A stretch of 64,000 nucleotides of DNA, from the NCBI GenBank assembly GCA_947177425.1, contig CAMWUN010000017.1:1-64000 (forward strand), read 5' to 3'. Position numbers and translations under genes: made by a program. This document shows positions 32,627 to 37,812 of this stretch, piece after piece (positions within the stretch are counted from its first letter, which is position 1; every line of letters begins with the position of its first letter). This stretch comes from an uncultured bacterium (lineage in GTDB: Bacteria; Bacillota; Clostridia; Lachnospirales; Lachnospiraceae). The notes below the pieces were generated by a model. It was not told the origin of the DNA. It made no database searches and saw nothing but the letters and a program-made list of their open reading frames with translations.

Positions 32627-33199
32627 TCATCCAGGTTCAGCAATGCGGCTGACCCCTACATATATGTTGGAAATGCTGTACCATGTGGGATAGTCAACAA
32701 TACCGGACTGGGGCAGGTTGAATATTTTCTGGAATGTTTTTACAGCCTGTGCGGTGGCGGGGCCGTAAATACCGTCAACAGCAATTGTTGGAATCGCCGG
32801 GTAATTTTGGGCAATGCGGTTAAGCTGCTGCTGCATCTGACGCACTTTATCCCCAGTAGAGCCGATGGACAGGTTGTAACCCGGCCATGAGGAAGGAACG
32901 CCTGCAATGCTCTCCGCTGTGTTGATGTACATGTCGCTTCCATAATAATAGTGGATAATATCAACGGCAGAGTATCCTTCTTCCCCTAAATACTTCGACC
33001 CCCACTGGCTTAAGCCATTGCAGGTGACTCTCCTGCCATCGCAATAAGATGTAAAAATAGGCTGGCGGACACCAGGACGTGACAAATAGTTGGCAAACAC
33101 GCTGTCAACTACCCGGTCAATGTTTTCGTAAAAATTCCTGCCCCTTATCCATTTCTGGTCGTAGGCTGTAGAAGATGTAATGGTAAAATTGTAGCCTTT
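32627..33199 (-). CDS. 3' part of interrupted SpoIID-like/peptidoglycan-binding gene
   Basis: This is the C-terminal 190 residues of a protein whose 5' part lies at 37060-37758. The first 110 residues match the second half of a SpoIID-type fold (DQKWIRGRNFYEN, FTSYCDGRR, NGLSQWGSKYLGEEGYS, IIHYYYG). The last 75 are a PG_binding_1 domain (LSIGSTGDKVRQMQQQLNRI, VDGIYGPATAQAVKTFQ). It has no start of its own: an open frame extends upstream into the recombinase gene, but that part is not protein-like. Joining at the 10-bp repeat gives TEWYRN followed by KGYNFT in the same frame. SpoIID-type proteins hydrolyse or remodel peptidoglycan during sporulation. Confidence 0.85.
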   Translation of the reverse strand, partial: KGYNFTITSSTAYDQKWIRGRNFYENIDRVVDSVFANYLSRPGVRQPIFTSYCDGRRVTCNGLSQWGSKYLGEEGYSAVDIIHYYYGSDMYINTAESIAGVPSSWPGYNLSIGSTGDKVRQMQQQLNRIAQNYPAIPTIAVDGIYGPATAQAVKTFQKIFNLPQSGIVDYPTWYSISNIYVGVSRIAEPG

Positions 33200-34889
33200 A
33201 TTCCGGTACGGGGAAACCAGTAGTTTCAGGCAAAATTTTATCTTTTGCAGACAAAGCCCTATCTGGGGGCGGCCCAAAGTTTTCTCTCCCTATCCTGTAT
33301 TTTATATGGATATCTGCATCTTTTACCTGAATTTGCCCAATCATGGAAAATAGCAGCATTTTCTTTGTCTTTATGTCTGCGCCCTTAAATATCTCCTTCC
33401 AGTCCGGGAACATGGCAGTCAATCTTTCTCTGCATCCGCCCATATCGACTAATTTAGTCAATTCATCCTTTAACTGCTGCGCATTTTCCTCCAGTTCCAT
33501 GCGCAATCGTTCCTTATCCTTTATCAGGGAGGAAAGCTTCTCTGGGTTGAAATAATAGTCTCCCCTGATGGCCTCCGGTATCTTTTCCTCCAGTGTCTGA
33601 ATATCATACTCCAAGGCTTTCTGTCTTTTCTGTACACCTTCCAGCTCCTTCTTTATTCTCTGTCTGCGCTGGTTTTGTTTCTTTTGTAATTCTGCTGCCA
33701 TGTCTATGGGTTTTAAACTCTCCAGACAGGCTTCCACTGCTTCAAATACAAGCCCTTCCAGATAACTTTGCGAATAGCAGGAACGTTCCGGACATTTGGA
33801 CGGGCACAGGTACCGGCCTGTAAATGCAGTCTTTCTTTCCCCTGATTTTGTTGTCCAGTGACTGCAGTAGCTTCCGTTTTTTAATCTTCCTCCACAGTAT
33901 CCGCAGACTGCCAGTCCGGTCAGCGCAAGCTGCCCTTTCGTGCTGAAGGGCGTATGGTTCTGCGCTTCGTATTCTTCCGACAATTTGTTGTGGGACGCAT
34001 TGATTTTTGCCTTTCGTGCTTCCCGGATTTCCTGTGCCCTCTCCCATACCTGCTGTGACACCACTATCAGTTCCGGTATCTGCTCGTCAGAGTATATCCA
34101 GTCGCGTCTGTCTAATCTGACATACGTGTCATGATGCACCCGCCGGTCAATTGCCAGGTATCCCATGTAGACCGGATTGGTCAATATGCTGCGTATGGTT
34201 CCGGCTTTCCACTTCTGTGTTGTCACCGCCGGAACCCCCTGGCTGTTTAATTCCTCCGCGATTTTGTAATACCCCATTCCCTGATAAATGGATAAATCGT
34301 ATATTTTCCTGACTATCCGCGCTTTTTCCTCCACAATCTCAAGCTTTTTCAACAGCCTTCCATGACTGCTGACCATGCCGGAAGGCACCAGCCGATAGCC
34401 GTATGGGGCCCTGCCTCCGGTAAATTTTCCCGACCTGACCAGTTCCTTCTGCGTATCCCGCACACGCATACTGGTCTTTTTGCTTTCCCCCTCGTTCTGC
34501 CAGAACCGGATATAGTTGAGCAGTTTGTCAATATGATCCTGGGTCTTTAACTGGCCGTCCTTAATCGTCCACACCTCAATGCCAAGCCGGTTCAGCGCCG
34601 CCACATAAAAGCTGTATTCCTCCTGCCTGCCTATCCTGTCCGACATATAAGCAAGAAGCACATCAAACTGCCCCTCCCTGGCGTCGGAGAGAATCTCCTG
34701 CAGAACTTCCCTCTCTTCCACACTGTTTTTGTATGCTGACACCGCCTTTTCCATATACTCCTTGTCAAACACCCAGTCGGGACGCCCGGCTATGTACTGT
34801 TTTGCCTGCGCCCGCTGCATTGGAATGTCATCGTCATGTAACTGTTGCTTCGAGGATACCCGGAGCAGAGTCCTTACCTTTTTATCCAA
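33198..34889 (-). CDS. Large serine recombinase
   Basis: This 563-residue site-specific recombinase most likely moves or excises the element that encloses it. The resolvase domain carries the catalytic serine in LLRVSSKQQ (S12) and the arginine motif DRIGR near residue 84. A recombinase domain follows (GGRAPYGYRLV, WKAGTIRSILTNPVYMGY). A zinc ribbon (CGYCGG at 329-334, then cysteines at 362-371) and a coiled coil (about 400-480) complete the integrase-like architecture. The TTG start follows AGGAGGG and overlaps the small upstream gene by 8 bp. Its stop codon TAA lies across the element border: the last codons GTA CCG GAA are the 10-bp core. It looks intact. Confidence 0.93.
   Translation of the reverse strand: MDKKVRTLLRVSSKQQLHDDDIPMQRAQAKQYIAGRPDWVFDKEYMEKAVSAYKNSVEEREVLQEILSDAREGQFDVLLAYMSDRIGRQEEYSFYVAALNRLGIEVWTIKDGQLKTQDHIDKLLNYIRFWQNEGESKKTSMRVRDTQKELVRSGKFTGGRAPYGYRLVPSGMVSSHGRLLKKLEIVEEKARIVRKIYDLSIYQGMGYYKIAEELNSQGVPAVTTQKWKAGTIRSILTNPVYMGYLAIDRRVHHDTYVRLDRRDWIYSDEQIPELIVVSQQVWERAQEIREARKAKINASHNKLSEEYEAQNHTPFSTKGQLALTGLAVCGYCGGRLKNGSYCSHWTTKSGERKTAFTGRYLCPSKCPERSCYSQSYLEGLVFEAVEACLESLKPIDMAAELQKKQNQRRQRIKKELEGVQKRQKALEYDIQTLEEKIPEAIRGDYYFNPEKLSSLIKDKERLRMELEENAQQLKDELTKLVDMGGCRERLTAMFPDWKEIFKGADIKTKKMLLFSMIGQIQVKDADIHIKYRIGRENFGPPPDRALSAKDKILPETTGFPVPE
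33200..33209. repeat. Attachment-site core, copy 1
   Basis: ATTCCGGTAC occurs here and at 37066-37075 as an exact direct repeat. Here it joins the recombinase stop region to the 3' half of the interrupted gene. The inner side has an arm TAGTTTCAGG at 33221-33230 that matches, inverted, the arm inside the other end. Confidence 0.85.
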
Positions 34890-35112
34890 CGCTGCATCCC
34901 TCCTTATCCTTCATGGACAAAAATGAGGAGGGCGTTTCCTCTGCCCGCCCGGCTCCGGCTTCCATCTTTTCCAGACAGATTGCTTTCAATCTGCCTGTGA
35001 ACTCTTCTTCCGCCCTCCGGCAGGGCTGTTCCGGGAATTCCAGCGTGACTGTTACTGTCGTACCTTTATACGCCAAAATTAAGTCCTTCCTGGTTCCTGT
35101 GTTGAAAATCAT
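34882..35112 (-). CDS. Small protein encoded next to the recombinase
   Basis: A 76-residue protein of unknown family (begins MIFNTGTRKDLILAYKG). It has a short beta-rich start followed by a charged helical stretch (RRAEEEFTGRLKAICLEKME). Its stop overlaps the recombinase start by 8 bp, and its ATG follows GAAGGA. The tight coupling suggests a role in recombination, possibly a recombination directionality factor that permits excision. That is an inference; no helix-turn-helix is obvious. Confidence 0.6.
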   Translation of the reverse strand: MIFNTGTRKDLILAYKGTTVTVTLEFPEQPCRRAEEEFTGRLKAICLEKMEAGAGRAEETPSSFLSMKDKEGCSVG

Positions 35113-35200
35113 GTAGATACATCCTTCTGCAAAATCCTCTTTACATGATTATGTGAATGTTTTCCCTTGTATTCAAAGGCAATTTTGGGACAACATGGAT

Positions 35201-35251
35201 AAAAATGCGCTCAGACAAAGGCTCATTGCCTTCATCTGAACGCATCTTTTT
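35201..35251. terminator. Hairpin between the element's two gene groups
   Basis: ATGCGCTCAGA on the left pairs imperfectly with TCTGAACGCAT on the right, with AAGGC/GCCTT inside and A/T runs at both ends. It can terminate in either direction, so the DUF5722 gene and the recombinase pair may be transcribed separately. Confidence 0.6.
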
Positions 35252-35303
35252 CATTTCCATCCAGTCAGCCTGCCTGCCAAAGATAGCAGTAATGGCACCT
35301 GGT

Positions 35304-36956
35304 TTATTGTACAACGCCTGTACCTTCTCTTGTCCAGACAATGTTCTGCCCTATCATCTGGTCAATATCCATGCCGATGATTTCAGAAGCCCTTGCCTTG
35401 GCCGCCGCCTCGTTGGCAGTCCCCAGATTTTTATAAATCTCAAAAGCAGGCTTTCTGTTTCCATTCAAATCAATCAGCCCAAGATCCAGACGGCTTTCCA
35501 TTTCGTGGGCGTCATCGGTCTGCCTGAACAGCATAAACGCGTCCACTTCCGGGATGGAGGCCGCTTTCAGATAGCCATAGGCAATGGATGCCTCCTGCAT
35601 ATCCGTCCCAAAATCAGAAGTATAGCCAATTTCCGCAAGAGAAATGCTCCGCACCTGCCCGGAGGGATTTAAAAACTGGGACTGGTGCATATAGTTAATT
35701 AATATGTCAATATTCTGCATGGTAATATAGGGTGTGGAAAGATTGTCCTTCACCCATACCGCCGGGCCGTTCCACGCATAAGGGTCATACAAGGGCGAAT
35801 TATAAGGATGATAGGAAAGCCCCCAGTCTATATTCCCCTCCCGGTTGATATAATAATTAAACTGATCCAGATACTCCCTCGCCAGAAAACTTCCCGGATT
35901 GGATTTCCGGTTCCATTCCTGGTCTATGGAATTATAAATGCGCGCATTGCCATTCATGCTCTTTATTTCATTGTATAAAATACGGAATGCTTTCACATAG
36001 GTATTCACATTCAAGTCAAGGGACGTGGAACTGGTATACCACCAGGATGTGCGGGCGTTGACCTCGTTGCCCACAATCCAGTTATCCACCTGCCCACAGC
36101 CGGATTTCCCCGAATAACGCTGTCCCAAAAAGGCGCCTATGGCTTTCAGGTGGCTGGTGCCTGCATCGTCCGTCACATTAAGGGCATATCCCGGACACAC
36201 CCCTCCCCTTGCCAGAGGATGGGTCAGATCCTGCCCATATGCACCTGTCCCGCCGTTCAGGATAACCAGTGTGACCTGCATCCCGTAGCCATTCAGGGCT
36301 TTAACCAGTGAGTCATAATTGCCGAGAATCCCTGAGTCAAAATAGTAAGTCTGTCCATTGTAACTGAAAGGAACTGCGCCGGGAACTCCTTCCCCGGAAC
36401 AGATATCATCAATGTGTATATTGTAAATAACCTGTTTTATGCCAAGTTCCTGAAGTTCATTGTAGGAAATCCTGCTGATATCCGGCAGAATGCCTTTAAT
36501 TCCCGTATCCATTCTCTGGGATGTATATGGGGCAATGGCTTCCGGATTGGTGATATAATGCTCGTCACTGACCTGATACATCTGGCCGCCCCGTTTCATG
36601 GCAATCAGGAACTTCCGGCTTAAATTGGACTCCGGCGTATTATGGTTCAGGGGAAAGCTTACAGAAACCGACTGCCCTGCCTCCACGGATGCAACCACCT
36701 TTCCCGCCGTGCCGTCCAGATACACTTCATCTGCATACACATAAAATTTGCCGTCATCGCTGGAAGGCACACTGTCTGTACGAATCTGACACAGCACCTC
36801 ATCCCCTGTAATCACACAGGAACTTATGGCAACAGGCCGCCCCGCTGCCTCTGCACACATCAGGTTTCTTCCCAGATTTCCTGTTCCTCCCAAAGCAACC
36901 GCCACAGCCGCCGCTGTCAGCGCAAATAATCTCACTATTTTCCTGATTCCGCTCAT
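35304..36956 (-). CDS. Secreted DUF5722-type glycosidase-like protein
   Basis: The 550-residue protein is cargo of the intervening element. A signal peptide covers about residues 1-38 (RLFALTAAAVAVALGG, then AEA). A beta-rich domain spans about 40-135, and a TIM-barrel-like catalytic domain follows. By position, candidate catalytic acids are E298 in WIVGNEVN and E442 in SLAEIGYTSDFG, the arrangement seen in clan GH-A. It most closely resembles the family I recall as DUF5722. The substrate is unknown. ATG follows GGAGGCTGG. It is transcribed in the direction of the recombinase gene, after which a hairpin follows. Confidence 0.8.
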   Translation of the reverse strand: MSGIRKIVRLFALTAAAVAVALGGTGNLGRNLMCAEAAGRPVAISSCVITGDEVLCQIRTDSVPSSDDGKFYVYADEVYLDGTAGKVVASVEAGQSVSVSFPLNHNTPESNLSRKFLIAMKRGGQMYQVSDEHYITNPEAIAPYTSQRMDTGIKGILPDISRISYNELQELGIKQVIYNIHIDDICSGEGVPGAVPFSYNGQTYYFDSGILGNYDSLVKALNGYGMQVTLVILNGGTGAYGQDLTHPLARGGVCPGYALNVTDDAGTSHLKAIGAFLGQRYSGKSGCGQVDNWIVGNEVNARTSWWYTSSTSLDLNVNTYVKAFRILYNEIKSMNGNARIYNSIDQEWNRKSNPGSFLAREYLDQFNYYINREGNIDWGLSYHPYNSPLYDPYAWNGPAVWVKDNLSTPYITMQNIDILINYMHQSQFLNPSGQVRSISLAEIGYTSDFGTDMQEASIAYGYLKAASIPEVDAFMLFRQTDDAHEMESRLDLGLIDLNGNRKPAFEIYKNLGTANEAAAKARASEIIGMDIDQMIGQNIVWTREGTGVVQ

Positions 36957-37059
36957 ATTCCAGCCTCCATCTGTATTTTATAATTTCTCTTCCATATCCC
37001 ATAAATTTCCTGCACAAACCAATTATACCTGTAAACATTTCAAAATACAATCCTGAAAA

Positions 37060-37758
37060 CTATTGATTCCGGTACCACTCTGTATATACCCTGTTAAGAG
37101 TAAAGGACATGATAACAAGGGTATTGGCATAAATGGCGCTTTCGGGCCAGGTCGCATAGATTTCTGAGGATACTACGTTTTTTATATAGTCCCGGTACCG
37201 CACGTAATAATTGGCTGCAGATGAATCATTGGGATCGCCGTCATGTACAACCACATATTCCGGTATCACCACCCGGCTTAAGACAATCTCTCCGCTCTCA
37301 TCCATGGGTTTAATCTCATCCTCAGGTATCTTGGGCGGATACTCCCCGAACAGTGTATGATCCGGTATGACAATCACTTCCTCCTGCCGGGTGGCCTCTT
37401 CCAAAGGTGTAAGACGGATTGGCTGTACTGCTGTCACATCCGCCAGGATTTCTGTTCCCGATACCAGCAAAGGCTCATATCCGGGCGCTTCCACCTGTAT
37501 GTTATATTCTGAATAGGGCTGTTGTTCCACTGGCTCCAGACTGTATTCAACAGGGGGTGCAGGCAGGTCGATCTCCTGCGTCTGACCGGATGAGTCAGTG
37601 CTCAGTTTTTCCACTGTAACATCCGGCACGCCGGTGTAGGAAATCGTCACCGTGGCATCCGGTATGGGAATAAGTCCCAGTGTGGAAGTCACATTAATTT
37701 GTAATTTACCGGAATGTCCCGTATCTGCCTGGGCACTGTGAAAAATATTTTTGGGCAT
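37060..37758 (-). CDS. 5' part of interrupted SpoIID-like gene
   Basis: The uninterrupted part of the gene encodes 231 residues up to WYRN; the annotated frame runs two codons past the element border to a TAG. There is no signal peptide. Residues about 20-120 form a carboxypeptidase-regulatory-like beta domain (KLQINVTSTLGLIPIPDATV). From about 170 the first half of a SpoIID-type domain begins (IKNVVSSEIYATWPESAIYAN, TLNRVYTEWYRN). The second half and a peptidoglycan-binding domain lie at 32627-33199. As it stands the product would lack the peptidoglycan-binding part and half the enzyme domain. ATG follows AGAGGTA. The glycosyltransferase gene ends 54 bp upstream and is probably co-transcribed. 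Confidence 0.85.
   Translation of the reverse strand: MPKNIFHSAQADTGHSGKLQINVTSTLGLIPIPDATVTISYTGVPDVTVEKLSTDSSGQTQEIDLPAPPVEYSLEPVEQQPYSEYNIQVEAPGYEPLLVSGTEILADVTAVQPIRLTPLEEATRQEEVIVIPDHTLFGEYPPKIPEDEIKPMDESGEIVLSRVVIPEYVVVHDGDPNDSSAANYYVRYRDYIKNVVSSEIYATWPESAIYANTLVIMSFTLNRVYTEWYRNQ
37066..37075. repeat. Attachment-site core, copy 2
   Basis: ATTCCGGTAC, identical to 33200-33209. It joins the 5' half of the interrupted gene to the element, and CCTGAAAACTA at 37052-37062 is the inner arm. Confidence 0.85.
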
Positions 37759-37812
37759 AAAATACCTCTGTAAATATATTTATCATATAGTATGCCAAAG
37801 TGCCGGAACCGT

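Follow-up and report, generated by a model that had tools for sequence, protein, structure and literature searches.

A small serine-recombinase element interrupts the spore cortex-lytic enzyme gene sleC in Lachnospiraceae and is probably excised in the mother cell

Introduction

In only a handful of genes is DNA known to be removed in a programmed way during sporulation. The locus described here raises the question of whether a spore gene that is cut in two by inserted DNA is dead, or is rebuilt in the cell that needs it. The locus lies in a stretch of 64,000 nucleotides (hereafter the window; positions 1 to 64,000 of contig CAMWUN010000017.1, GenBank assembly GCA_947177425.1) from an uncultured bacterium of the Lachnospiraceae, and consists of sleC, the gene of the lytic enzyme that opens the spore cortex in germination, interrupted by a 3.9-kb element that encodes a large serine recombinase. 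An earlier note on the window had likened this arrangement to the skin element of sigK. In the analysis reported here the likeness is supported by the recurrence of the element at one exact site, by vertical inheritance, by strong purifying selection on both gene halves and by promoter motifs of mother-cell type. It is highly probable, in our judgement, that the insertion is a small, non-phage, vertically inherited element of the skin and gin kind, which would be excised in the mother cell to rebuild sleC before its transcription by sigma-K. Excision itself, the cell and time of its occurrence, the role of a 76-amino-acid (aa) protein of the element and the sigma factors involved are what we infer from these data.

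Results

The split gene is identified by sequence as sleC, since its two halves align with contiguous portions of the SleC pre-pro-form. The 5' half matches residues 61-286 (E 1e-59) and the 3' half residues 271-475 (E 6e-66) of the solved SleC structure, PDB 9h68_A, entitled 'spore cortex-lytic enzyme pre-pro-form'. Pfam searches detect PG_binding_1 in the 3' half (59.4 bits) and SpoIID in the 5' half with 21 bits, below the 23-bit cut-off as expected for half a domain; the cut falls inside the SpoIID-type domain and before the peptidoglycan-binding domain. The earlier description of a wall-remodelling SpoIID-like gene other than sigK was right about the domains and about sigK, and is narrowed here to a specific germination enzyme gene. 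Apart from the split copy, no sleC was found in the assembly.

Both halves lie on the minus strand, and the gene is split as had been claimed, breaking off at TEWYRN and resuming in frame at KGYNFT (from 33199, ending at 32627). After TEWYRN the 5' half continues with a glutamine and a stop codon, both supplied by the element. A 10-bp repeat, GTACCGGAAT on the minus and ATTCCGGTAC on the plus strand, marks both joints. Its copies are 3,866 bp apart, corresponding to 3,856 bp plus one repeat copy, and removal of this length yields the predicted frame of 421 codons (228 + 3 + 190). A 13-base pattern built on the repeat, GTACCGGAATMAA, occurs in the 4.19-Mb assembly at just the two joints (backwards control, 0), and together with the crossover dinucleotide common to all loci read at both joints and the uninterrupted gene of relatives this led us to reject a chance repeat. 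The identity over 10 bp, stressed in the earlier note, is real at both joints but is partly similarity of the sites: only a core GT, located within the Trp-Tyr codons TGG TAC, is common to the 22/22 loci read at both joints (window included). Locus L069 and four distant loci, outside the 22, have GT at both joints as well. The exception is L054, of which only the left joint was read and which shows GAGTTCTACC, unexplained. The two ends of the element are imperfect inverted repeats of each other around the core; their mean score is 7.7, whereas shuffled sequences average 4.6 and the highest mean in 500 shuffles is 5.3. The recombinase stop codon begins with the final base of the right joint repeat and extends across this joint. 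On an excised circle the C-terminus of the recombinase would therefore continue into sequence from the element's left end (stretches 33198-33209 and 37063-37075).

The inserted DNA encodes, as had been stated, an intact large serine recombinase, full length and with both expected Pfam domains. R10, S12, DRIGR at 84-88 and Cys 329/332/362/366 are invariant in an alignment of 34 rows, which includes the window and excludes five distant rows and the broken recombinase of L069. We take these residues to be the catalytic serine, the DRxGR motif and the zinc-ribbon cysteines; a zinc-ribbon Pfam match was not obtained for the window's recombinase. The open reading frame (ORF) upstream of it encodes the 76-aa protein and was aligned in the window and 20 relatives (21 sequences). 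An AlphaFold2 model of the protein (mean predicted local distance difference test 73.6, predicted template modelling score 0.35) shows a beta hairpin of two strands followed by a helix, at good confidence over residues 7-53, and a disordered tail. From its place, size, conservation and promoter the protein is a candidate recombination directionality factor. The cargo gene encodes a DUF5722 protein that is 95% identical in the nearest relative of the locus, L042 (dN/dS 0.037), and a further frame of 66 aa (35141-35341) showed no relatives in genomes other than that of the window. DUF5722 genes also adjoin sleC outside the element, downstream of an uninterrupted sleC in L021 and upstream of sleC in L046; the cargo may therefore be a captured neighbour. 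A prophage was considered and rejected, because the element (recombinase, 76-aa ORF, DUF5722 gene and the unconserved 66-aa frame) holds no phage structural or replication gene, a pattern search of viral_contigs found no relative, and the best match in phage records is only 31% identical. A 4.5-kb phage-labelled record with a recombinase of 31% identity gives no sleC match.

In Clostridioides difficile, sleC is transcribed by sigma-K, the -35 motif being ATA for sigma-E and AC for sigma-K and the -10 sequences being very similar (PMC3789822). CD1234, the 72-aa directionality factor of the skin element, is under the control of sigma-E and SpoIIID (PMC5025042). The Lachnospiraceae loci show comparable motifs. 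Alignment of the regions before the 76-aa ORF reveals a conserved (G)(A/C)ATA ... CATA block in surroundings that are unlike each other. In the 150-420 bp preceding the recombinase a strict sigma-E-like pattern is found in 30/40 loci and a loose one in 33/40, as against 6.1 expected for the loose pattern from shuffles. Of the 23 loci in which tblastn located the 76-aa ORF, 19 (among them the near-identical L043-L045) have CATA at positions -37 to -42 relative to the start of this ORF; a sigma-E-like match anywhere in 100 bp was seen for 7/248 control ORFs. Before sleC itself, split or uninterrupted, AC-N15-18-CATAnnnTA occurs within 100 bp of the start in 43/70 loci and in 1/248 control ORFs.

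These motifs parallel the control of sleC and CD1234 in C. difficile and suggest that sigma-E turns on factor and recombinase, that the element then leaves and that the rebuilt gene is read by sigma-K. The element would remain integrated, and sleC off, during growth and in the chromosome bound for the spore. In the mother cell the 76-aa ORF and the recombinase gene would be switched on by sigma-E; with the 76-aa protein acting as directionality factor, the recombinase would join both sites at the GT core, release a circle of 3.9 kb and rebuild the 421-codon sleC. Sigma-K would transcribe the rebuilt gene, and pro-SleC would be built into the spore for germination. Excision would probably be confined to the dying mother cell.

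Alternatively, excision could be real and yet independent of sporulation, with switching in growing cells that leads to a mixed population. This would accord with the yin element, which was found excised at all culture time points (PMC10747680), and with the block before the 76-aa ORF, which can also be read as a weak sigma-70 promoter (score 9 of 12). However, the block preserves across loci the motifs (G)(A/C)ATA and CATA, spaced as for sigma-E, rather than the sigma-70 hexamers, and it stands at a fixed distance from the start of the 76-aa ORF, so that we consider switching in growing cells unlikely.

The next possibility is that an ordinary mobile element has landed in sleC, that the gene is dead in its carriers and that the element moves on its own schedule. 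Some members of the family are plainly mobile. In L044 and L045 the element genes differ by synonymous distances (dS) of 0-0.04 and the flanking genes by 0.80-1.19; near-identical elements in diverged genomes indicate a recent transfer. Elements range from 1.9 to 14.9 kb in the 22 loci (about 18 kb in the distant L113), 7/22 measure 7-15 kb, and among the few tested, mobile-type genes were found, namely a replication-associated protein (L119) and a small resolvase (L116). The window and its nearest relative L042, however, have kept the same split and the same cargo for as long as their neighbouring genes have diverged. By Nei-Gojobori estimates, for which many of the larger distances are saturated, dS between the two is 0.57-1.04 for flanking genes, 0.67 for the DUF5722 gene, 0.92 for the recombinase and 0.53 and 0.81 for the sleC halves. 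As element, sleC and neighbours have diverged alike, the element has evidently descended with the chromosome. The ratio of nonsynonymous to synonymous distances (dN/dS) is 0.03 for the sleC halves and 0.04-0.09 for the flanking genes. Three further pairs, L059/L070, L058/L061 and L049/L071, repeat the pattern with dN/dS of 0.01-0.08 for sleC. For L059/L070 a single flanking gene was comparable (dS 0.94; element dS 0.37-0.62), L058/L061 concerns a longer paralogue of sleC, and L049/L071 allowed comparison of the 5' half and DUF5722 only, the recombinase being saturated. Eight pairs lacking the window's split were compared as well, three of which involve genome G006 or G019; in the other five, with an uninterrupted gene, dN/dS of the 5' half is 0.014-0.053.

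The halves are also free of stops. All 35 of the 5' halves split at the window's site lack an internal stop, and 31/32 of the 3' halves have the expected 189-191 (or 392-393) codons, L067 with 173 being the exception; in these counts two places are entered twice and L054 is partial. Such conservation of the split, together with vertical inheritance and purifying selection, would not be expected of a dead gene. A plain pseudogene was rejected on account of the purifying selection in the window/L042 and the three further pairs and the absence of stops, and we regard the ordinary mobile element with a dead gene as quite unlikely.

That the two halves are made as separate, cooperating polypeptides without any excision would agree with purifying selection on both, but is highly improbable, as the cut runs through the SpoIID-type domain, the 5' half ends in a short stretch of unlike element sequence, and only 4/27 of the 3' halves have an in-frame start with a Shine-Dalgarno-like sequence, one of them ATG (in the window the sole such upstream start is a TTG inside the recombinase gene). 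Strong conservation of two halves, of which the second lacks a start with a Shine-Dalgarno-like sequence in 23/27, is understandable only if sleC becomes whole in some cell of importance.

The split is no peculiarity of the window. In its genus 36/37 genomes match the 5' half of sleC; according to our reading of the table of matches, 25 of these have an open frame of at least 368 aa, 9 stop at residue 228-232 as the window does and 2 end elsewhere. Close relatives thus carry an uninterrupted sleC, the empty site, and the comparison with relatives that the earlier note had proposed found its uninterrupted copies within the genus. In a collection of named genomes, 32 relatives of the recombinase were found, all of them flanked by a sleC half on at least one side (2 kb away from the recombinase in L062); 25 are inserted in sleC and 7 in the longer paralogue. 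Across the family, taken to be the Lachnospiraceae, a sleC-like match at 1e-40 was obtained in 254/397 genomes. Re-querying of 44 weak-scoring genomes revealed both halves in 27, some on different contigs, so that sleC is split in at least 28/254 including the window: at least 8 at the window's site, at least 18 at about residue 292 and at least 2 at about residue 165-190. Genomes G126 and G150 are ambiguous, and six family genomes show one sleC half only.

The recombinases of the residue-292 site form a separate group on the tree. In L104 the expected Pfam domains were confirmed, and 3/7 have CATACANT just upstream. CATA lies within 50 bp upstream in 6/7 and an ATA-spaced match in none of the seven examined, which makes control of the kind proposed for the window only suggestive here. 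The residue-292 loci L104-L110 and L117 belong to this different serine recombinase group, with elements from about 2.4 kb upward; the cargo of L109 includes both chains (alpha and beta) of serine dehydratase as well as a sodium/proton exchanger. Near residue 165-190 sleC is split in L111 (genome G337) and in G244, the insert of L111 containing a pair of neighbouring serine recombinase genes, for both of which the Pfam domains were confirmed.

Some further interruptions were noted. In two of the 25 genomes with long frames, G006 (L018) and G019 (L024), sleC is interrupted directly behind YLGDG, near residue 304, and unlike sequence follows; no recombinase was found near this cut within the stretch examined. 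Both sleC and the longer paralogue appear split in one genome, G050 (L051). In L067/L121 the 3' half stops at about residue 335 and the remainder lies on another contig, which points to a second interruption or an assembly fault. G257 (L112) seemed to be split at the window's site and was discarded, since the site is joined and a one-base frameshift follows a few codons on.

Elements of the family differ in their composition. The orientation of the recombinase relative to sleC varies, the inverted group requiring 4 changes on the tree and at least 3 by well-supported branches. Judged by gene sizes, L059, L070 and L123 have the same cargo, with recombinases 62, 61 and 35% identical to that of the window; in L059 it comprises a PnrA-like binding protein, an ATP-binding cassette (ABC) ATPase, two permeases and a thymidine kinase. 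As the same cargo stands behind different recombinase subfamilies, cargo and recombinase modules may be exchanged. L049/L118 contains two recombinases (65 and 38% identical to that of the window) in one 11.3-kb insert, the second adjoining the 3' half, and is perhaps a nested or composite element.

Table 1. Features of the split sleC locus and related matches (positions in the window unless another contig is named)
Feature	Position	Strand	Remarks
3' half of sleC	32627..33199	-	190 codons; remaining SpoIID-type domain and PG_binding_1
Large serine recombinase	33198..34889	-	563 aa, TTG start; Resolvase and Recombinase domains (Pfam)
Right joint repeat GTACCGGAAT	33200..33209	-	core GT at 33208-33209
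Intervening element	33210..37075	.	3,866 bp, GT core to GT core
76-aa ORF	34882..35112	-	overlaps recombinase start; candidate recombination directionality factor
Sigma-E-like promoter GAATACA-N14-CATA	35150..35174	-	CATA starts 41 nt upstream of 76-aa ORF
Cargo gene, DUF5722 protein (PF18989)	35304..36956	-	550 aa
5' half of sleC	37060..37758	-	232 aa; first part of SpoIID domain
Left joint repeat GTACCGGAAT	37066..37075	-	core GT at 37074-37075
Sigma-K-like promoter of sleC, AC-N16-CATACTATA	37786..37812	-	
Receiver-less Spo0A-like matches	G000:C38 (L145 4221-4739); G000:C1 (L146 1790-2182)		Spo0A-model search

Discussion

Excision of the element in the mother cell presupposes a host that sporulates, and its gene content suggests that it does. 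SpoIVA is present with 647 bits, well above the cut-off, and among 14 control genomes only Bacillus subtilis matches. Several observations nevertheless weigh against the reading that we prefer. The SigK model finds several sigma factors, of which the best reaches 277 bits, less than the cut-off of 298.65, and it also matches sigma factors in 11/14 control genomes; which of the matches are sigma-K, -E, -G and -F is our own reading of the sequences. The Spo0A model (1e-40) has matches in 36/37 genomes of the genus, 11/37 exceeding the Spo0A cut-off. The matches listed cover only the DNA-binding part (model about 127-261), the best lying in open frames of 153-239 aa, and none among them in the 37 genomes bears a receiver. 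The receiver-less form of all these listed matches casts doubt on whether the genus starts sporulation and by what route. That spo0A might itself be split was suspected when its best match lacked the receiver; a split of the sleC kind was dismissed, because candidate receiver pieces look CheY-type in our own reading and the receiver-less form is common to the genus among the matches listed.

Other points on the same side concern the element. Apart from the sigma-70 score mentioned above, the strict sigma-E-like pattern is missing in 10/40 loci, including all five distant recombinases of the window's site, and the inverted-repeat score is 5 or lower in 7/22 pairs of element ends. The recombinase of L069, in a draft containing Ns, is broken. 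For the 76-aa protein neither a PDB fold match at E <=0.001 (Foldseek) nor anything convincing in Pfam, NCBIfam or PDB sequences was found. Three SleB/CwlJ-type hydrolases are encoded in the same assembly, and SleC may for this reason not be the sole cortex hydrolase. Finally, the assembly contains the integrated form only and neither an excised junction nor a circle, which is expected of vegetative DNA and proves nothing.

Comparison with described systems places the sleC element among known relatives in kind. The skin element of C. difficile (sigK; CD1231, CD1234) likewise combines a large serine recombinase with an interrupted mother-cell gene, and it has a small directionality factor with a sigma-E-type promoter (CD1234, 72 aa), to which the 76-aa protein with its sigma-E-like motif is the candidate counterpart. 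It differs in its target, and the unit described here has 3.9 kb with three genes. CD1231 is expressed constitutively (PMC5025042), whereas in the sleC element the recombinase gene comes immediately after that of the candidate factor. Nearest in kind is gin in gerE of Bacillus cereus ATCC10987, a non-phage element with serine recombinase and directionality factor (GirC, GirX) and a short shared sequence at the joints, which is excised in sporulation. In contrast to the sleC element, gin measures 28.6 kb, has three recombinases and interrupts gerE, and its descriptions come from strains of B. cereus and B. toyonensis, while the sleC family spans many species (for gin, PMC5595907). The yin element in yabG of Clostridium botulinum V73 is also a serine recombinase element in a sigma-K-type clostridial spore gene, but a prophage and found in one strain (PMC10747680). 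In SP-beta/spsM and vfbin/spoVFB a spore gene is equally rebuilt by excision, but the elements are phage or prophage-like and the target genes are others (PMC10747680 and PMC5595907).

Our literature search, with subscription papers and preprints outside its reach, found no report of an interrupted sleC among the papers listed. The earlier suggestion of a possible new rearrangement would hold with respect to the kind of target, but not as a one-off, the window's element being one of a family. From the known elements it is set apart by the germination-enzyme target, the minimal unit, the recurrence over the family and the coexistence of mobile and inherited forms. On balance we lean towards the view that sleC is a hub of developmental DNA elimination throughout the family, at which serine recombinases from three or more groups have each settled on their own in three positions, sheltered by excision that is limited to the mother cell. 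A part of the elements would still be mobile and others domesticated to about 1.9 kb, and their cargo (DUF5722; a PnrA/Bmp-type ABC transporter with thymidine kinase; serine dehydratase) would be discarded from the mother cell as sleC switches on.

Minimal elements across many gut species allow recombinase, candidate directionality factor and promoter to be compared side by side, and they are a source of compact serine integrase systems with matched sites. As mobile and inherited versions of one system coexist, the question of how mobile elements turn into developmental switches can be addressed directly. In genome annotation, a split sleC should be taken neither for a pseudogene nor as a sign that the species is germination-defective.

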